Shown in pieces: positions 45,158 through 61,603 of a DNA stretch of 64,000 nucleotides. The position numbers were made by a program, and so were the translations under genes. The notes below the pieces were generated by a model. That model saw nothing but the letters and a program-made list of their open reading frames with translations. It was not told the origin of the DNA and ran no database searches. The DNA lies in NCBI GenBank assembly GCA_034003725.1, contig JAVEYB010000004.1, forward strand, positions 1-64,000, written 5' to 3'. Numbering within the stretch: the first letter of the stretch is position 1; each line of letters opens with the position of its first letter. This DNA comes from Candidatus Zixiibacteriota bacterium. Lineage in GTDB: Bacteria; Zixibacteria; MSB-5A5; GN15; FEB-12.

Positions 45158-47071
45158 TCAGAACGCGTATAATATGGTGAAATGCCAGCGTTTTGCAAAG
45201 TCGAAGCTGTCGGTTTCGAGACGCTGGGCATAATCGAGTCGGATGGGGCCAGCCGGCGAGAGAATCTGGAATCCCGTGCCGTAGGCAACGGCCAAGCGAT
45301 CGAGTCGAATGTCCCCCCATTCGAGGAATCCGTTGCCGACGTCGGCGAAGACCGACTGCCAGAGGGGGAATGCGGCGAGGATATCGAGTAACGGTATCTT
45401 GTTGAAGATCTGGACCGTTTTCCAGCGGAACTCCTGATTGAAGACAAAGACGTACTGGGCACCGCGCGGATTTTTGTCACCGTCAAGCGGACCAAGACGG
45501 TTTTCTCGAAACGACCGTACCGTATTGGCGCCGCCAAGCAGAAGCCGGTCATCCGTCAGCAGGCTGTCGGAACGTCCGAAGGGCTCAGCCAGTCCCAGTT
45601 TGACCCGGGTGGCGCTGATCCAGCCGGGCCAGACCGGCTGGTAGGTCGACCAGGACGCCTGAATTCGATAGAAGTCGTTGTCACCACCCATGAAGCCGCC
45701 GAAGTAATCCACCGAGAGGTCAACAAACGAGCCCCGACTCGGAATAAACAGGTTGTCCCGGCTGTCATAGCGGAACTGGCTGTACATGCGACGTCGTCCC
45801 GAGATGGTGGCATCGACACCGATCCCGGTCGTATCGTCGGGGAACTCGGACAGTTTCAGCGACTCGTACTCGACACCGAGCCAGACTCGGACTTCGCGGC
45901 CGAAACGGCGGTTGGTCTCTGCAGAGAGTGAGTAGGACCGGCGTTTGTAGACGTTGTCCGGAACCCGGAGGGTGGGTTCCCATTCGAAGCCGATTGTCAG
46001 CGGCATGCGCAGGCCCAGAAACCAGGGCTCCGTGAAGCTGGCGTTGTACTTGTTCTGGAGGATGCGGCTGTCGCGGCCAAGACTGAAGGTATACGCGATG
46101 CTGAAGTCTCCCCTGCGTGAGCCAAGTATGTTCCGCTTACCCGCGCCGGCGGACACCAGCCAGGCGAGGTCGCGGATGTTGGTCTGGCCAATCGCTCCGA
46201 GCTCAGTCGTGACGTAGCGGGTCTTTCGTTCGCGAACCCGCAGGGTGAAGTCCGGTTGGAGGCGGTTCGGGGAGTTCTCGGCCCGGTTCAGCTGCATGGT
46301 CGAGAAGTACCCGGATTCCAACAAACGCCGCTGCGACTCGAGAATGTCTTCGCGGCTGTATACGTGTCCCGGTTTCACTTTGAGTTCGCGGCGTGCTACG
46401 TACTCAGGAAACTGCTCGGTTCCTTCGACCGCTATATCGCCGAACCGCACCAGTGAATCCGCAAACACATGAAAGATCACCGGCGCCCGGTTGCTTGAGG
46501 CCACGGAATCGACCCGATAGCCGATCTGTGCGTAAGGATATCCCCTGTTCGCCAGATACGTTTTGAGTTCAAATTCAACCTGTTTCAGATCGATCGGGTT
46601 GATCGGTCGTCCTGATTTGAGCTGGGTCGTCTTCTTTTCGAAGTGGATGGCCAGTCCGGGCGGGTAGTCGCCGGTCACCCGAACCGTATCGATGAAGAAG
46701 CGTCGTCCTTCGTGGATGGTGATATGCACGAGGGCACTTGAATCAGGAAGGATTTCAAACGCGTGATCGAGACGGACGCCGAGGAATCCTTCGGTGAGAT
46801 ACAGGTACTTGACTTCGAGGGTATCGCGTCCGAAGGTTTCGCGTTGCACGCGGATTCGCCGGTCGTCTTTAAGGGCGCCCCACCAGGACCAGGTTTTGGC
46901 ATAGAGGCGGCCCTTGATTTCTCCCGACGGGTAGAACGTATTGCCTTCGATCAGAATTGAGTCAATCTTCGGATTGTCCCGCATCCAGCGCTGGCGTTCA
47001 CGCTCGGTCATGGCGTGTGTCGAGGCGGTCAGAACCGCGAGCACGACGCATGTCCAGAGAGCCAGCCGCAT
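45158..47071 (-). CDS. BamA/TamA-family outer-membrane protein
   Basis: 637 residues. A signal peptide (LAVLTASTHA) is followed by several POTRA-like units (about 35-330; IDSILIEGNTFYPSGEIKG, GDIAVEGTEQFPEYVARRELKVKPG) and a 16-strand-like Omp85 barrel with the final motif LSPAGPIRLDYAQRL and C-terminal Phe. It is TamA-like because it follows a TamB-like gene with a 1-nt overlap (TGATG). TamA/TamB build or transfer outer-membrane components. The product could also be a BamA paralog; no surA or skp is alongside. Confidence 0.9.
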   Translation of the reverse strand: MRLALWTCVVLAVLTASTHAMTERERQRWMRDNPKIDSILIEGNTFYPSGEIKGRLYAKTWSWWGALKDDRRIRVQRETFGRDTLEVKYLYLTEGFLGVRLDHAFEILPDSSALVHITIHEGRRFFIDTVRVTGDYPPGLAIHFEKKTTQLKSGRPINPIDLKQVEFELKTYLANRGYPYAQIGYRVDSVASSNRAPVIFHVFADSLVRFGDIAVEGTEQFPEYVARRELKVKPGHVYSREDILESQRRLLESGYFSTMQLNRAENSPNRLQPDFTLRVRERKTRYVTTELGAIGQTNIRDLAWLVSAGAGKRNILGSRRGDFSIAYTFSLGRDSRILQNKYNASFTEPWFLGLRMPLTIGFEWEPTLRVPDNVYKRRSYSLSAETNRRFGREVRVWLGVEYESLKLSEFPDDTTGIGVDATISGRRRMYSQFRYDSRDNLFIPSRGSFVDLSVDYFGGFMGGDNDFYRIQASWSTYQPVWPGWISATRVKLGLAEPFGRSDSLLTDDRLLLGGANTVRSFRENRLGPLDGDKNPRGAQYVFVFNQEFRWKTVQIFNKIPLLDILAAFPLWQSVFADVGNGFLEWGDIRLDRLAVAYGTGFQILSPAGPIRLDYAQRLETDSFDFAKRWHFTILYAF

Positions 47072-50000
47072 CAGAACTCCCAGTGCAGTCGAAGGTTGAG
47101 GATATATTCTTCGAGTTCATTCCGCCGACCCTGCAGGAGGAACTCGCGGCTGAAGCGGTACTCGAAACCGACTTCCTCGCCGATCGTCCCTGAGACGTTC
47201 GACCGTCCGTACACGTACAGGTTCGGCGCCGCGTATACGCCGAGGGTGACGCGGGTGTTGGCCGGGTCGAACTCGCCGCCGTAGGCGGGGTCGATTTCGA
47301 AAGTCTCGACGCCGAGCTGGCTCAGTTGCCGGGCGCCCACGCGCGAGATCTGCGAGCCGACAAACTGCGACACCCGTTCTTCGATGGCGCCGCCATAGGA
47401 GCCGGTGTCGGCGCCGTAGTAATTGAGCGCGATCAGCGACAGGATGTCCTCTCGTGAGAACGGGGAGTCTTCGCACACGTTGATGTCGGCGGTATCGAGC
47501 GAGCCGGTCACGTGGATACACAAATCGATGACGTCGGACGCGGCTTCCTGCTCGTACCGCACACCGGGGATGCGCGTGGTTGCGACGATGTCAAGCTGGG
47601 GGTTAGGAATCTCCGTCCCGGTGAAGATAACCGCATCTTCCCGCGCCTCGAGGCGGAAGATCTTGTCGAACAAGAAACCTCGGCCCCGCAGGATGTCCAT
47701 CTGGCCGACAATCGGGTAATTGCCGTCCTCGCGCACGAGATTGACCTCACCTGCGAATTCCGCATCGATATCTTCGTTTTCGATCCAGTAGTTGGATAGA
47801 ATTTCGATATTGAGGTCGAGGTCCCAGCTGTCCTCTTCGGTAAGGCCTTCGAGGATCGGCGATCCTTCTTCGGCGGAGGCGAACGGCACGCGGTAGCGGC
47901 ACGAGATCAGGGTGATGTCTCCGGTGACGGTGGGCGGCGTCTCCCCTACGATCTGCAGTTCGCCTTCGAACACGCCTTCGATGTCTTCCAGTTCGTATTC
48001 GAACGGGAATTCCCTCGGGATGGATACGTCGAGTTCATAGACGAAATTGTCCAATGACGCGACGCGAATTTCGCCTTCGATGTAGGCATACGATGGTTTG
48101 CCGCTGACGGTGACGGGCCGCAGCTCGCCGCCAATATCGCGCATGCCGATCGTGCGGGTGCGCTCTTTTCCCTTTCGGTTGTCGAGCACGTATGCCTCGA
48201 TACCGTCGATCATAATCCGGTCATCCTCCATGCGGACCGATACGGAGTCGGCGAAGACCCAGTTGACCAGGTCGAAGTATTTCAGCTGCGCTCCGACCAG
48301 TTGGGCGCTTCCTTCGAGATGCGGATCCGAGGGGATACCGGACAGTCGGAAGTCCGCTTCGAATTCGCCGTTGAGCTGCTCGACCGAGGGGAGCATAAGG
48401 CTGACGAGTTCGAACTGATTGTCGCGGGCCGTGATCCGAATATCAAAGGGCAGGTCGGGGAGGCGCTCGATCGAATCGGTAACAAACGCCAGATCCGCGT
48501 TCAGGAAGCCTGAGGCAACGTAGCGGCCGGAGTCGGAGAGCACGACCGCGGAATCGACGGTCAGCACGCGATTTTCGTAGGCTCCTGCGGCGGTGAGTTC
48601 TCCGAGCTTCAATCCTCGATACGTGAGCGAGTCGATGATGCCGGTCAGAGAAAACGCGGGATTGGCGAAACTGCCGCCAACTCTGCCGTTGAAGGAGATG
48701 TGTCCATCGACCTGCCACTCGGGGGCGAACAGGCGCACCCACGGCGACAGCACAATGCTGTCGGCGGAGGCCCGAAAATCCATCGTTTCATCGTAGTTGA
48801 TGCGTCCCGCAAGAGACAGCAAACCGCCGCGCTGCGCGAAGTAGAGCCGGTTAAAGACGAAGCCGGAGGAGTCGATCTCGATATCGACCGTTCCACGGTT
48901 ATAGAACCCTCTTCCAAACAGATTGATGACGGTGGTATCCAGTTCGACTCGGTTGGGGTAGACACCGTAATCAAAGATCCCCAATGACGAGCCAAACAGG
49001 TCGGGGCTGCGAACTGCAGCCGTGTCGATAATGACAGTCTGCGAATCGAGGGTCAGCCTGGTCAGTGCGGAATCGAACGGGGTTCCCCACAGGCTGCCGG
49101 CGTAGAAGTCGGCCTGCGCCCACCCCTGCCGTCCCGAAAGGAACCGTTTTATGTCGGCGTCGATGACGCAGCTGTCGGCGCTGAGGCCGTAGATCCAGAC
49201 CGAGTCGGAGACGAAGGTCGCTCTGAGATCGGGGTCGGCGGTTTTTCCCGAGACGACCGCATGCGCGCGTCCCCGGCCGCCGGGTTGATCGATGAACAGC
49301 CGGCCGCGGTATCGATCGAGATTCTCCAGCGCCGCCTCGACACGCAGATTGATATCGCCGGAGTACACAATCGATCCGGCAGCCGCGAATTCGTTTTCAT
49401 GGTAGGCGACAACAAATGGATCGGTGAAGGTGAGAGAGTCGGTCGTGATCATCATTGGACCGTACGCACGCTGCAGCGGGTACTCGTCGAACGACGATTC
49501 ATACAGGTCGGCGGCGATCATCATACGCATGGTAGCGGTGCGAAAGGATTCGCCGACCAACACAATATCTCCGTTGAGATCGGACTGGAAGGTTCCAGTG
49601 ATCAGGTTATCCAGATTGAAATTCCGGATAGAGGCATTCAGGCGGTACGACTCCATGGCGCCGGAGAAGTCGATTCCGCCGTAGCCGTCGATGGCGCAGT
49701 CGCCGAGGATCACCCCGTACAGGGTGTCGAGTTCAAGCATTTTGTCATGGAGGCGGAAATCGACCTGCAGGTTCTCGAGCGATGCAATCATAAACGATCC
49801 GCCAATGTTGACCGAGCCCGACAGCGTGTCGTTCGTGCGCGTGACGGTACCGGTGAGATCGACAACGCCGTGCAGATTCGGGCCGATCCACCTGCTCACC
49901 TGCTCCATGTCTACGTGGTCAAAGGCGAATTCCACCTGCCCGCTCAAATCTTCAAGCATGACCGACCCGTCCAACCGTGCCCGCGTGCCGCCTGAGACGA

Positions 50001-50664
50001 GCATGAGATCCTGAAAGGTCACGCGGCGCTCGGAGAAGGTGACTTTGCCGGTTGCGGCGGTGAGGTCGATATCCTGTAACGGTAACGCAAAGCCCATCTG
50101 CTTCAGGTCGGCGCTCACCATGCCTTCGTCGACATGCAACGATGTAGCCAGGGTAAGCTGCTGGAGGCGGACCGTATCCTGACCGGGAGCGATGAGTTGA
50201 AGGGATGCATCGCTGAGGATAAGGTTGCCGATGTAAAATGAGGGCTGCCGCGAGGGTGTGTCCGTCCCGGACGACAGCGCCGGCAGTCGATAGGCTCCGA
50301 CGCTGTCACGACGGACGGTTACCGATGCCGAGCCGATTTCGACGAGTTCGAATCGATAGTCGCGATTCCAGAGGTTGGACAGCCGATATGCGGTGGTCAG
50401 GCGGGGTAAGCGAATTACCTCGTAGCTGCCCAGCGAATCGGTGTAGGAGATGCTGACGTCTTCCAGCATCAGTCCCGTGAACGGGTTTCCACGGATATTG
50501 CCGACCGATGCGGTGAGCGAATAACGATCCCGAATTTCCTTATTGAGCCGCCCGGTGACGATTCGTTCCAGCCCGCGCATCGGGATCAGATAGACATACA
50601 TGGCGGCCATGATCAGGATGGAGACAAAGACCACGACTGCCACTATGCGGAGCCATCGCTTCAT
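47071..50664 (-). CDS. tamB: TamB-like translocation/assembly protein (DUF490)
   Basis: 1197 residues. An N-terminal membrane anchor (7-28) leads to a very long strand-rich body and a C-terminal DUF490 domain with VGQMDILRGRGFLFDKIFRL, DAVIFTGTEIPNPQLDIVATTR and DILSLIALNYYG. TamB-like proteins span the periplasm as a groove. It overlaps the upstream CMD-like gene by 4 nt (ATGA) and the downstream TamA-like gene by 1 nt, so all three are coupled. Confidence 0.93.
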   Translation of the reverse strand: MKRWLRIVAVVVFVSILIMAAMYVYLIPMRGLERIVTGRLNKEIRDRYSLTASVGNIRGNPFTGLMLEDVSISYTDSLGSYEVIRLPRLTTAYRLSNLWNRDYRFELVEIGSASVTVRRDSVGAYRLPALSSGTDTPSRQPSFYIGNLILSDASLQLIAPGQDTVRLQQLTLATSLHVDEGMVSADLKQMGFALPLQDIDLTAATGKVTFSERRVTFQDLMLVSGGTRARLDGSVMLEDLSGQVEFAFDHVDMEQVSRWIGPNLHGVVDLTGTVTRTNDTLSGSVNIGGSFMIASLENLQVDFRLHDKMLELDTLYGVILGDCAIDGYGGIDFSGAMESYRLNASIRNFNLDNLITGTFQSDLNGDIVLVGESFRTATMRMMIAADLYESSFDEYPLQRAYGPMMITTDSLTFTDPFVVAYHENEFAAAGSIVYSGDINLRVEAALENLDRYRGRLFIDQPGGRGRAHAVVSGKTADPDLRATFVSDSVWIYGLSADSCVIDADIKRFLSGRQGWAQADFYAGSLWGTPFDSALTRLTLDSQTVIIDTAAVRSPDLFGSSLGIFDYGVYPNRVELDTTVINLFGRGFYNRGTVDIEIDSSGFVFNRLYFAQRGGLLSLAGRINYDETMDFRASADSIVLSPWVRLFAPEWQVDGHISFNGRVGGSFANPAFSLTGIIDSLTYRGLKLGELTAAGAYENRVLTVDSAVVLSDSGRYVASGFLNADLAFVTDSIERLPDLPFDIRITARDNQFELVSLMLPSVEQLNGEFEADFRLSGIPSDPHLEGSAQLVGAQLKYFDLVNWVFADSVSVRMEDDRIMIDGIEAYVLDNRKGKERTRTIGMRDIGGELRPVTVSGKPSYAYIEGEIRVASLDNFVYELDVSIPREFPFEYELEDIEGVFEGELQIVGETPPTVTGDITLISCRYRVPFASAEEGSPILEGLTEEDSWDLDLNIEILSNYWIENEDIDAEFAGEVNLVREDGNYPIVGQMDILRGRGFLFDKIFRLEAREDAVIFTGTEIPNPQLDIVATTRIPGVRYEQEAASDVIDLCIHVTGSLDTADINVCEDSPFSREDILSLIALNYYGADTGSYGGAIEERVSQFVGSQISRVGARQLSQLGVETFEIDPAYGGEFDPANTRVTLGVYAAPNLYVYGRSNVSGTIGEEVGFEYRFSREFLLQGRRNELEEYILNLRLHWEF

Positions 50665-51341
50665 GACCGTGTGTCCATCTCCAGCTTTTTCAAGATGTCG
50701 CGGGCGGCAGCCCAGCCGTCGGCGTGAACGTCGCGGAGATCTTCGATTACCAGACGGACGAGTTCGCGGTCCGCGCCAACGTTCAGGGCGCCTCGAATAT
50801 GCGAATGAAGCTGGCGAGGTCGGTTTTCAACCACCAGACAGGCCACAATGGCACATTCGCGGGATACGATATCAAGGGCGGGGCGGGAGAGGACCTTTCC
50901 ATAGCCCTCAAGTATCATCCATCTGAAGACATCGGGTGCAAATGACTCGACACGACGACGGAGGGCCGTGTAGTTCTTATCATAGACGCGCCGGCAGAGT
51001 TTGTCGCCGCGGATATACCACGAGCGGGTTTCCTCGGGGCTGACCGGCTCGTCGTTGGTGTGATGATCGACGGGTTCGGGCCAAGCCTGATGGAGCAGAT
51101 CGGCAGCCTCGAGCATTCGCGGGAAGCCGAGGAACAGATATGACTGCAGGACCAGTTCATACAGCGGCGAGCGAGACGGGCAGTTTCGTCTATAGAGGGA
51201 AATAGCATCGGTAATGATCCGCGGATCGGCGACGGCGATCGAGGCTGAAAACAAGGCGAGCGTGCGCTCGGCGGCGTAATCGGTCACGGAAAACGACCGA
51301 ATGCGCTCTTCCAGCGCGGCCTTGTTCGCTCCTGCGTCCAT
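50661..51341 (-). CDS. Carboxymuconolactone decarboxylase-like protein
   Basis: 226 residues. The N-terminal half is all-helical with SPLYELVLQSYLFLGFPR. The C-terminal half has SRECAIVACLVVENRP, LHSHIRGALNVGADRE, which is the CMD/AhpD core. The AhpD CxxC pair is absent: the two cysteines are four residues apart (CAIVAC). So antioxidant activity is doubtful. It starts upstream of tamB and overlaps it by 4 nt, an unusual companion for an envelope pair. It may be a helical adaptor rather than an enzyme. Confidence 0.75.
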   Translation of the reverse strand: MDAGANKAALEERIRSFSVTDYAAERTLALFSASIAVADPRIITDAISLYRRNCPSRSPLYELVLQSYLFLGFPRMLEAADLLHQAWPEPVDHHTNDEPVSPEETRSWYIRGDKLCRRVYDKNYTALRRRVESFAPDVFRWMILEGYGKVLSRPALDIVSRECAIVACLVVENRPRQLHSHIRGALNVGADRELVRLVIEDLRDVHADGWAAARDILKKLEMDTRS

Positions 51342-51385: not shown

Positions 51386-52558
51386 TTACTGTTTCAGAGT
51401 GCGCAGGCGGGACTCGAGCGCGTCGAGCTGTTGTTTCATCCTGACAAGTTCGGAAGTGAGCGAGTCGATTTCGTGTTCGCGAGTGACGGATTGGGCACCG
51501 TTGAGACCGGTCTGATCGAGCCCTTTGCGCCCGACCTGCACGAGGCGGGTGATCGATTTGTTTTGGCGGATGATTTCGATAGTACAGACGCTGCCGGGTC
51601 GCGAGCACCGAACGGCGCTGGACAGTTCAGCGGCGGAGACATAGGCGACATCGTTGTAGCCGACGATCAGATCCCCAGAGGCTATTCCACCGTTGGCGGC
51701 CGGTGACCCCGGGACGACCGATGTCACAATTATCCCCCGTTCCAGCATCATGCGATCACTGGAGGACACGCTGGCAAGCCGCACCGGGGTAGCGATTTCC
51801 AGGGGAGGGATGATCTCGATATCGGCAGACTGAATACCGAGGAAGCCGGCGTGGCGGTCTCCCCGGGTGGACAGGTAACTGATGATTCCGGGCAGTTGAT
51901 AGGCGGGCACGGCGAGGGCGATCCGGGAGTCGACTCCATCACCATCCGCGATTATACCAAGCAGATCGCCGTTCATGTCGAAGATACCGCCCCCGATCGA
52001 GCCGGAAGAAATCGGCACGGAGAACTGCATCAGGCCGTCAGCCCGAAGGCCCGCACAGAATCCCAGAGACGGAGCCGCTCGCAGACCGTAGGAGTTGCCC
52101 ATAGCAACGATCATCTGGCCAGCGCAGGCTCGTTTGGCCGACAAATTCACGACACTGCCCATCGGCCGACTGGCGCGAATCAGGGCTAGATTTGTGTGGT
52201 AATCAATCCCAACAAGTTCAGCAGGTACCGGGGCACCATCCAACACGACCGACATGCGGTCGTGCCCGGCGACCATGGAGGCGGCGACCAGTATATGCCC
52301 GTTCGTATCGCAGACAAGCCCGGTCGAGACCACTCGTCGGACGACGTCCTGAGCAGGCAATGTGGCTTGTCCGGGACCGAGGCTCGATGATGCCTCGACG
52401 GTCACGATGGAGCGGGAGATGCGGAAGACGAGTTCGCTGATTCCCTGTTCGAGGCTGAACAGCGGGCCGTCACCAGCATTCGCCATGGACGAAAAAAAGA
52501 CCGTCAGGGTGGCCGCCTGAAGCAACCGTCTGACGGTCCAAAATCCGGTCGTTAGCAT
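51386..52558 (-). CDS. HtrA-like protein with PDZ domain, catalytic triad lost
   Basis: 390 residues from the ATG at 52558, 1 nt after the anti-sigma stop. A signal peptide ends at MANA. The trypsin-like core spans about 50-220, a PDZ domain about 250-345 and a coiled coil about 360-390. Aligned by eye with DegP, the His (TNNHVV) is Ser in VAASMV, the Asp (SDIALI) is Asn in TNLALI, and the Ser (GNSGG) is Ile in GSIGG. All three triad residues appear replaced, so it should bind peptides but not cut them. It lies in the sigma/anti-sigma operon and may be a stress sensor. Confidence 0.8.
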   Translation of the reverse strand: MLTTGFWTVRRLLQAATLTVFFSSMANAGDGPLFSLEQGISELVFRISRSIVTVEASSSLGPGQATLPAQDVVRRVVSTGLVCDTNGHILVAASMVAGHDRMSVVLDGAPVPAELVGIDYHTNLALIRASRPMGSVVNLSAKRACAGQMIVAMGNSYGLRAAPSLGFCAGLRADGLMQFSVPISSGSIGGGIFDMNGDLLGIIADGDGVDSRIALAVPAYQLPGIISYLSTRGDRHAGFLGIQSADIEIIPPLEIATPVRLASVSSSDRMMLERGIIVTSVVPGSPAANGGIASGDLIVGYNDVAYVSAAELSSAVRCSRPGSVCTIEIIRQNKSITRLVQVGRKGLDQTGLNGAQSVTREHEIDSLTSELVRMKQQLDALESRLRTLKQ

Positions 52559-52559
52559 A

Positions 52560-53252
52560 TTAGTATACCGAACCATCCTCCCTGACATCACTGACTCTAT
52601 ACACGCGCAGCACGGGGCGGAACCGATAGTAGTCGGTCAGATAGGGAGAGAACCCGCTCTGGCGCGCGGATACGTTTTGAACCTGACCGGCCAGCCGGTC
52701 GAGTGATACAAAGCCGTTCCTTGCCGTCAGCGCGCTGAAAATTTGCGTTACCTGTTGCGAGCGCTGCAATTCCCTTTCCAACGACCACCCGGTACCAACG
52801 GAAACAGCCAGATTGGGGTTGTCGACCGGCTGCACCGTGAGATAGGCATCGTCAAGCGAGCCGGCTCCCGAGTTGGTGGCGGACGGAGAACCAAACTGAT
52901 TGAAATCACCGGTAAGCATGACGGCCGCAAGCAACAGGACGGCAGTCACGGCCACCGGCACAGCCTTCCACCAGAGGGGCGCGGGGACCCGCTTTCGCGG
53001 AAGCATAGCGTTACTGCGCGTTTCCGCAAACCGTTCGTGGGCGATCCGGTTCAGCAACCGGGAGTTGAAGTCGTCCGACACTTTGAGTGGCGGAATATCC
53101 CGGGAAGCGTCCCGCATGGCGCGGAAGGCCTGTTCCTCGGCCCGCAAGTGCGAGTCTTTCGCCAGGCGCTCCCGCACAGCCTCGCGCTGCCGGTCGGTCA
53201 ACTCATCGTTAGAGTAGGCCGACAGGAAGGAGCGTACCTTTTGAAATCGCAT
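52560..53252 (-). CDS. Membrane anti-sigma factor-like protein
   Basis: 230 residues from the ATG at 53252, which has GGAGG upstream. A cytoplasmic helical part (about 1-100) with SFLSAYSNDELTDRQREAV resembles anti-sigma domains but lacks the zinc HxxxCxxC motif. One membrane helix (WWKAVPVAVTAVLLLAAVML, near 103-125) and a periplasmic part of about 100 residues follow. It overlaps the sigma gene by 44 nt and precedes the HtrA-like gene, as in sigma-E/RseA-type pathways. Regulated cleavage of the periplasmic part is plausible. Confidence 0.8.
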   Translation of the reverse strand: MRFQKVRSFLSAYSNDELTDRQREAVRERLAKDSHLRAEEQAFRAMRDASRDIPPLKVSDDFNSRLLNRIAHERFAETRSNAMLPRKRVPAPLWWKAVPVAVTAVLLLAAVMLTGDFNQFGSPSATNSGAGSLDDAYLTVQPVDNPNLAVSVGTGWSLERELQRSQQVTQIFSALTARNGFVSLDRLAGQVQNVSARQSGFSPYLTDYYRFRPVLRVYRVSDVREDGSVY

Positions 53253-53811
53253 TCTGTTCCTCCAGCTTCGGTTGCAGTTTCTCACGCAACATCAAGCGCG
53301 CCCGATTGACGCGCGATTTAACCGTTCCCAACGGGACACTGAGCACTTTCGCGACTTCTTCGTACGGCATTTCCTGAACGTCGCGAAGCAAAAACGCCAC
53401 TCTGTATTTCTCGGGGAGTCCGCCGATGGCCTCGTTCAGCGCCTGCGGCAGGCGGCTGGGTAGTTTGGGGTCGATGGCGAACTCGCGCTCATTGCCCTGC
53501 ATCTCCGTTATGTCGAAAAATTTGAACTTCCGTCGCTTACGCAACTCGTTCCTCGCCAGATTCAACGCAATCGTATAGATCCATGTCGAAAAACAGTGCT
53601 GAAAGTTGAACGACTGCCGGTGCTGATACACTCTGACGAAGGTTTCCTGAACGATATCTTCGGCTTCCTCCTGCGAAGACAGCATTCGTCCGATGACGTT
53701 CATCAGGCGATCCTTGTACCGGTCGACCATCTGGTTAAACGCCACCAGGTCGCCCTTCTGGATCGCTCTCATGAGCCCGTAATCGATATCTTTTTCTGTT
53801 TCTTTCGCCAT
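53209..53811 (-). CDS. ECF-type RNA polymerase sigma factor
   Basis: 200 residues from the ATG at 53811 (GGGAG upstream). Region 2 has MVDRYKDRLMNVIGRML, EDIVQETFVRVYQ and FSTWIYTIALNLARNELRK; region 4 has LPEKYRVAFLLRDVQEMPYEEVA and VPLGTVKSRVNRAR. It directs polymerase to a stress regulon and is likely held by the overlapping anti-sigma protein. A possible own-type promoter lies 30-57 nt upstream. Confidence 0.95.
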   Translation of the reverse strand: MAKETEKDIDYGLMRAIQKGDLVAFNQMVDRYKDRLMNVIGRMLSSQEEAEDIVQETFVRVYQHRQSFNFQHCFSTWIYTIALNLARNELRKRRKFKFFDITEMQGNEREFAIDPKLPSRLPQALNEAIGGLPEKYRVAFLLRDVQEMPYEEVAKVLSVPLGTVKSRVNRARLMLREKLQPKLEEQNAISKGTLLPVGLL

Positions 53812-53840: not shown

Positions 53841-53868
53841 TAGTACCCGGAACCGGGTCGAAAGTTCC
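53841..53868 (-). promoter_or_regulatory. Possible ECF-type promoter of the sigma operon
   Basis: GGAACTT (53868-53862) is the E. coli sigma-E -35 consensus, followed after 16 nt by TACTA. A GGAAC/GTTCC inverted repeat lies in the same place. It suggests autoregulation, but the -10 is a poor match. Confidence 0.4.
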
Positions 53869-60772: not shown

Positions 60773-61603
60773 TCACTGGTTGTTGTTTTTCCTGGACAGA
60801 CGGGACGAGGCTTCTTCGAGAAACTTGCGGTCTTCGCTGGAGATGTTGTCAATGCCGACCTCGTTGATTTTGTCAAGAATCGCATCAACTCGTTTCATCA
60901 CATCCTCGGCTTCCTGCCGTCTCTTTTCGAGTTTAGCTTCCTGGCGCTTGTAGCGCAAGTTTTTAAGTTTGCGGCCCAGGGACATCCAACGCCAGTCGCC
61001 CTTGACATAAATGAAGGCAAAAACGGCTCCGCCGAGGTGTGCCCAGTGAGCGATGCCGGGTGCGGCCGTGAGAAAACCCAGAAGCATAAAGCCGGGAACG
61101 AACCACTTGACCTTCACAGGAAAGAGGAAATAGAGATAGATTTCCCGCTCAGGGAACATTTTCCAGTAGGCGACGAGGACACCATAGATGGCTGCGGACG
61201 CCCCGATCATAGGGACTACCTGGGAACTCTGGACGGCCAGCGTCAGGACCGCACCCGCCAGGCCGCACAGAAAGTAAAAGCGACCGAATCGTTTTGAACC
61301 CCACGCGTACTCGATCTCGGTGCCAAACATCCACAGGCCGAACATATTGAAAAAGATGTGCCAGAACCCGCCGTGGAGAAACATGTAGGTGACGAGCTGA
61401 TAAATACGATTGGGGAAGTCATCGAAGAATCGGGCCGGCGACAGACCAAATGTGTACGCCAGGTTGCCGGACTTGAGTAATATCTGCAACAGAAAGACGG
61501 CGGCGCATGAGATGATAATCACGCGGATGAAAGGCGAAAGACCACCGGGGCCTATCCTTAGCCCGGTTCCGCCAAAACCACGATTACGGCCAGATAAGTT
61601 CAT
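60773..61603 (-). CDS. Rhomboid-family intramembrane serine protease
   Basis: 276 residues, six membrane segments. HGGFWHIFFNMFGLWMFG, the nucleophile Ser in GASAAIYGVL and the catalytic His in AHWAHLGGAVFAF are in place. A long C-terminal tail of about 70 residues is charged and helical (KRQEAKLEKRRQEAEDVMKR), then SSEDRKFLEEASSRLS as in many bacterial rhomboids. It cuts membrane proteins within the bilayer. It lies 20 nt upstream of the pseudo-receiver gene. Confidence 0.93.
   Translation of the reverse strand: MNLSGRNRGFGGTGLRIGPGGLSPFIRVIIISCAAVFLLQILLKSGNLAYTFGLSPARFFDDFPNRIYQLVTYMFLHGGFWHIFFNMFGLWMFGTEIEYAWGSKRFGRFYFLCGLAGAVLTLAVQSSQVVPMIGASAAIYGVLVAYWKMFPEREIYLYFLFPVKVKWFVPGFMLLGFLTAAPGIAHWAHLGGAVFAFIYVKGDWRWMSLGRKLKNLRYKRQEAKLEKRRQEAEDVMKRVDAILDKINEVGIDNISSEDRKFLEEASSRLSRKNNNQ

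Follow-up and report, generated by a model that had tools for sequence, protein, structure and literature searches.

The third gene of an operon headed by an ECF sigma factor and a membrane anti-sigma factor in Candidatus Zixiibacteriota bacterium (GCA_034003725.1, contig JAVEYB010000004.1, positions 1 to 64,000, the 64,000-nucleotide stretch analysed here and called the window) encodes an HtrA-like protein that is, with good support from sequence comparison, a pseudoprotease. The protein has lost its catalytic triad and most of the L3 loop, its gene is conserved at this position in the operon, and the presence of the gene is associated with an aromatic C-terminus on the product of the preceding gene, the anti-sigma factor, to which the PDZ domain probably binds. 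The features of the locus are as follows.

53841..53868, minus strand: promoter-like element GGAACTT-N14-GGTAYTA, found with identical or near-identical spacing in relatives of family f1 with readable upstream sequence
53209..53811, minus strand: ECF sigma factor, 200 aa (gene call and domain search)
52560..53252, minus strand: membrane anti-sigma factor, 230 aa, with a helical anti-sigma domain, a transmembrane helix at about residues 94-114 and a periplasmic tail, predicted to be disordered, that ends ...SDVREDGSVY
52563..52574, minus strand: last four anti-sigma codons, GSVY, an aromatic C-terminus and proposed PDZ ligand (anti-sigma alignment and count of tails)
51386..52558, minus strand: HtrA-like pseudoprotease, 390 aa, with a signal peptide (by eye), a trypsin-like domain, one PDZ domain and a coiled-coil tail
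52277..52279, minus strand: codon of Ser94, at the position of the catalytic His (alignment)
52190..52192, minus strand: codon of Asn123, at the position of the catalytic Asp (alignment)
51995..51997, minus strand: codon of Ile188, at the position of the catalytic Ser (alignment)
51833..51847, minus strand: PDZ carboxylate-binding loop GFLGI, codons 238-242, with Gly238 and Gly241 invariant in the family
51389..51478, minus strand: C-terminal coiled-coil tail, comprising roughly the final 30 residues (model and family comparison)
50661..51341, minus strand: carboxymuconolactone-decarboxylase-family (CMD) gene, next in the operon (Pfam and conserved gene order)
47071..50664, minus strand: TamB-like gene (Pfam and the same conserved order)
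45158..47071, minus strand: Omp85/TamA-like outer membrane protein gene, last of the conserved block, with a product that ends ...LYAF (Pfam and conserved order)
60773-61603, minus strand: rhomboid protease with a DUF6576 tail and a dyad of Ser and His that, by eye, looks intact

The operon runs in the order ECF sigma factor, anti-sigma factor with a single transmembrane helix, HtrA-like protein, CMD, TamB and Omp85. The sigma and anti-sigma genes overlap, and gene calls place the ATG of the HtrA-like gene 1 nt past the anti-sigma stop codon, as a preliminary description of this DNA had stated. Wherever the locus reaches far enough, every relative within the order that possesses the HtrA gene has it after the sigma and anti-sigma genes; the succession of HtrA-like, CMD, TamB and Omp85 genes is common to the f1 loci, apart from a few with no detectable CMD gene, and beyond the order the HtrA-like gene recurs in the same operon position across the class. 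The element GGAACTT-N14-GGTAYTA precedes the sigma gene in those f1 relatives whose upstream region was readable, and the window operon has the sole perfect copy in its genome, which points to autoregulation of the operon. A genome search for a wider regulon with this element, allowing two mismatches, returned fewer matches than the reversed-pattern control, and none could be called. Family f2 carries a variant of the element, GGAACTTT...TGTATCA.

The HtrA-like gene is absent from the operon in family f5 and in all but one of the readable f4 loci, the exception being genome G059. In most of the loci that lack it (L167-L179, L219 and L220), CMD and TamB directly follow the anti-sigma gene, and f4 genomes match other HtrA-type proteins elsewhere. 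In family f7 (L225 and L227) the third gene is larger, at 665-712 aa, and carries an insert past the His region, and one of the two proteins has more than one PDZ-like loop.

The encoded protein has the trypsin-like fold and PDZ domain of the HtrA/DegP serine peptidases. Pfam detects Trypsin_2 (40 bits, cut-off 27.6) and PDZ domains, and scores fall far under the curated cut-offs of models for active members of the HtrA family (106.6 bits with NCBIfam TIGR02037, cut-off 416 bits). In a Foldseek search with its AlphaFold model (mean pLDDT 82, pTM 0.71), the top matches are chains of DegP and DegS (E about 1e-24); the best structural match is peptide-bound DegS, 6ew9_C (Z 28.4, 284 residues, rmsd 4.1), and the protease domain of the model superposes at about 2 Å on DegS without its PDZ domain. 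Because DegS is the best match in this structure-based comparison, which the preliminary description had proposed, the fold has evidently been kept, as that description had judged from the fold motifs and the PDZ domain. The N-terminus appears by eye to be a cleavable signal peptide (MANA/GDG). The carboxylate-binding loop of the PDZ domain, a feature of DegS, is retained in the operon HtrA-like proteins, most of which also have a coiled-coil tail after the PDZ domain that is missing from canonical paralogues. Two cysteines at residues 145 and 168, invariant in f1 and absent from the canonical HtrA paralogues, could form a disulfide. Values of dN/dS between congeners are 0.10-0.19, which indicates that the gene is under purifying selection; these values, together with orthologues at the same operon position across the order, rule out a pseudogene or a chance reading frame.

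Alignment to the genome's own three canonical HtrA paralogues and to solved DegQ sequences located the triad positions and bore out the substitutions first read by eye, His to Ser (Ser94), Asp to Asn (Asn123) and Ser to Ile (Ile188), so that the His-Asp-Ser triad of active HtrA/DegP peptidases is missing from the window protein. The triad was typed in the third-gene proteins of 83 genomes, 47 of them from the window's own order (families f1 to f4). Within the order, none of the 47 proteins keeps either His or Ser; the Asp position, at which 5 of the 47 still have Asp, carries the least information. In families f6 and f11 to f19, Ser is mostly kept and His is replaced by Ser, Thr, Gln, Pro, Leu or Arg, and in f9 the triad Ser is replaced by Ala. 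One f16 genome keeps His and Ser and has lost Asp; among all 83 genomes, the full triad is found only in the three of f10. The claim that a catalytically dead relative occupies an ECF sigma/anti-sigma operon holds for the family as well as for the window protein. Residues that might form an alternative working triad, which would have overturned this claim, were also sought: the family has no conserved His, no conserved Lys in the trypsin-like domain and no alternative set of Ser, His and Asp near the site.

Active relatives in the same operon position, the other finding that might have told against inactivity, do exist in f10, as a minority in a diverged clade, and the inactivity of the window protein is therefore unaffected. 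A tree of the operon proteins and the three paralogues, made after removal of the triad columns, separates the two sets; each family with at least two rows forms one clade, and f10 is nested inside the operon-protein group, so that activity was either kept or regained there. In DegS, the L3 loop relays the state of the PDZ domain to the active site (PMC11642142). The full-length L3 sensor loop of DegS is absent from the window protein: the stretch from the opening Gly to the Ser position is 22 residues long in this protein and 22-23 residues (20 in one f1 protein) in all operon copies typed, including those of f10, versus 30-39 residues in the intact paralogues. Most of the relay has therefore been dropped even where the triad survives.

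The C-terminus of the anti-sigma factor varies with the HtrA-like gene. It is Tyr or Phe in 74 of the 78 genomes that have the gene and in 5 of the 14 that do not (all five Tyr; 92 genomes, Fisher 1.3e-6), and 6 of 10 aromatic losses mapped on the sigma tree fall on the 7% of branch length that lacks HtrA (binomial 1.7e-5); since the idea of an aromatic end came from part of the data tested and loss of the HtrA gene is confined to two or three lineages, the association represents few independent events and these values are descriptive. A paired test of tail against HtrA presence had too few independent pairs and did not reach significance. The exceptions that have the gene and a non-aromatic end are three f2 genomes and one f1 genome. 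Other membrane zf-HC2 proteins of the relatives, none of which (0 of 10) has an aromatic end, served as the control because the background derived from the loci (28.6% aromatic C-termini) is biased by the TamB, Omp85 and anti-sigma genes. The tail is not a by-product of coupling between the stop and start codons, as it is also present in f19, in which the HtrA gene starts about 180-195 nt downstream. The PDZ domains of DegS and AlgW are known to bind the C-terminal ends of outer membrane proteins and MucE, for example DNRDGNVYYF and SVRDELRWVF (PMC8545111). Beside these, the window anti-sigma factor ends SDVREDGSVY, and the PDZ domain of the HtrA-like protein probably docks this aromatic tail.

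Other features of the anti-sigma factors concern different parts of the protein. A periplasmic motif at about residues 134-147, DDxYLTVQP, is conserved in f1 to f4 regardless of the HtrA gene and may bind another partner or protease. Many f1 anti-sigma factors have a Lys/Arg-Glu pair close to their C-terminus (52563-52600, minus strand), probably a trace of the HtrA gene's Shine-Dalgarno sequence. The RseA_N match of the window anti-sigma factor falls under the cut-off; for its f1 relatives the matching model is zf-HC2. Most f1 relatives and f4 have kept a Cys/His zinc motif, HxxxCxxC, in the anti-sigma domain, and this motif is gone from the window genus (G000-G002).

The pseudoprotease may be a dedicated periplasmic partner of the anti-sigma factor, working as a non-proteolytic sensor and shield, a reading with nearly even prospects. 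Its PDZ domain would most likely bind ...GSVY, a tail similar to the C-terminal end of an outer membrane protein that has yet to be assembled. While bound there, the pseudoprotease would keep a site-1 protease away from the disordered periplasmic tail, much as RseB protects RseA. Misfolded outer membrane proteins whose aromatic C-termini are free would, as they accumulate, compete for the PDZ pocket and leave the tail exposed; an active protease, perhaps a membrane-anchored HtrA, would then cut the anti-sigma factor, RseP would complete the cleavage, and the freed sigma factor would turn on the operon that encodes it, with TamB and Omp85 among the genes expressed. Shielding of RseA and MucA by RseB and MucB, and binding of outer membrane protein or MucE C-termini by PDZ domains, are both known (PMC8103513, PMC8545111), and it is by analogy with RseB that shielding is preferred to recruitment. 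Against the scheme, f4 and f5 manage without the HtrA-like protein. The suggestion in the preliminary description that a dead relative could sense and shield instead of cut is plausible and gains support from the way in which the aromatic C-terminus of the anti-sigma factor tracks the HtrA gene; it may not extend to f10, where the full triad is kept and the partner may therefore cut.

Candidates for the cutting steps are present in the genome. The search for a site-1 protease proposed at the outset returned three intact HtrA proteases, one of which (C1, 451 kb) has an apparent N-terminal membrane anchor by eye, and an RseP-type site-2 protease is also present; no match above the cut-off to an RseB homologue (MucB_RseB) was found in the genome. 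The rhomboid protease of the window, put forward in the preliminary description as a possible release protease, was dropped, given that a homologue lies near the operon in only 1 of the 8 relatives checked with 19 kb of context and that the RseP-type and HtrA proteases are available.

The main rival explanation is that the pseudoprotease is an adaptor or activator that docks the tail and recruits or activates an intact HtrA, for example in mixed trimers, to cut the anti-sigma factor. This role, rather unlikely here, has a precedent in MamO, a degenerate member of the HtrA family which switches on MamE-dependent proteolysis (PMC4794232). The three intact HtrA proteases, one apparently anchored, could supply the active partner, the trypsin-like domain through which HtrA trimers pack is kept, and the evidence for PDZ-tail binding serves this explanation as it does shielding; but no particular active HtrA is tied to the operon, and the families without the HtrA gene keep the sigma/anti-sigma pair. 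The protein might instead be a periplasmic chaperone that binds the C-termini of unassembled outer membrane proteins for delivery to TamAB/Omp85, the anti-sigma tail being a mimic that gauges free chaperone. The conserved linkage to TamB and Omp85 and the aromatic tail, like that of an outer membrane protein, agree with such a function, which is nevertheless improbable, f4 and f5 genomes retaining TamB without the HtrA-like gene. There is a slight chance that another PDZ protease (an active HtrA, RseP or Prc) reads the aromatic C-terminus and that the pseudoprotease acts elsewhere: further PDZ proteases are encoded, but the aromatic residue decays upon loss of the operon HtrA gene, although f4 genomes still have their other HtrA-type matches. 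That the HtrA-like protein still cuts by means of non-canonical residues is most improbable, despite the full-triad f10 relatives in the same position, since the trypsin-like domain has no conserved His or Lys and the nucleophile position is variously Ile, Val, Leu, Ala, Tyr, Gln or Lys.

The preferred reading, a sensor and shield, would set this system between two characterized ones. Like DegS, the site-1 protease of the E. coli sigma-E pathway, the window protein has a trypsin-like domain and one PDZ domain with a carboxylate-binding loop and is associated with an adjacent ECF sigma/anti-sigma pair; unlike DegS, it has lost the triad, has a shortened L3 loop and an added coiled-coil tail, may be secreted rather than anchored, judging by eye, and is encoded inside the operon. 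With RseB and MucB it shares a periplasmic location, the third position in a sigma operon and a proposed role as a shield of the anti-sigma factor, but its fold is unrelated, and it is proposed to respond to outer membrane protein C-termini, whereas RseB responds to LPS. As it has neither the triad and full-length L3 loop of DegS nor the RseB/MucB domain (PF03888 is not among its Pfam matches), it is a member of neither family; in its working, the proposed system mixes the reading of C-termini by a PDZ domain, as in DegS, with the guarding of an anti-sigma factor in the periplasm, as in RseB. The window anti-sigma factor, like E. coli RseA, is a single-pass membrane protein encoded next to an ECF sigma gene; RseA ends GTQSQ rather than GSVY. 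MucD and the HtrA of M. tuberculosis, which are also HtrA-type proteins linked to sigma operons, are intact proteases. A degenerate triad, a retained fold and purifying selection make the window protein an HtrA-family pseudoprotease, loosely comparable to the magnetosome protein MamO, which likewise combines a degenerate triad with a retained fold (PMC4794232). MamO differs in binding metal, in having a transporter domain and in having no sigma/anti-sigma operon; the window protein lies in a different operon, outside any magnetosome context, and has no Pfam match to a C-terminal transporter domain. HtrA pseudoproteases are already known from MamO; among the papers searched, none was found that joins such a protein with an anti-sigma system.

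It is conceivable, though somewhat doubtful, that the operon represents a phylum-wide envelope-stress switch, in which an HtrA-derived sensor never cuts, the anti-sigma tail imitates an outer membrane protein as PDZ ligand, and competition for the pocket provides the read-out. The clade would then display stages of the change, from one family with all three triad residues, through many that have Ser but no His and the window's own order, in which both are gone, to two families that have lost the gene itself. Relatives with the full triad, half of it or no HtrA gene offer natural comparisons in much the same operon, and SDVREDGSVY with a single PDZ domain is a defined pair for the question of binding. 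If the scheme is true, an outer membrane stress sensor of the DegS type can work with its protease permanently off, and an anti-sigma factor can mimic the tail of an outer membrane protein.
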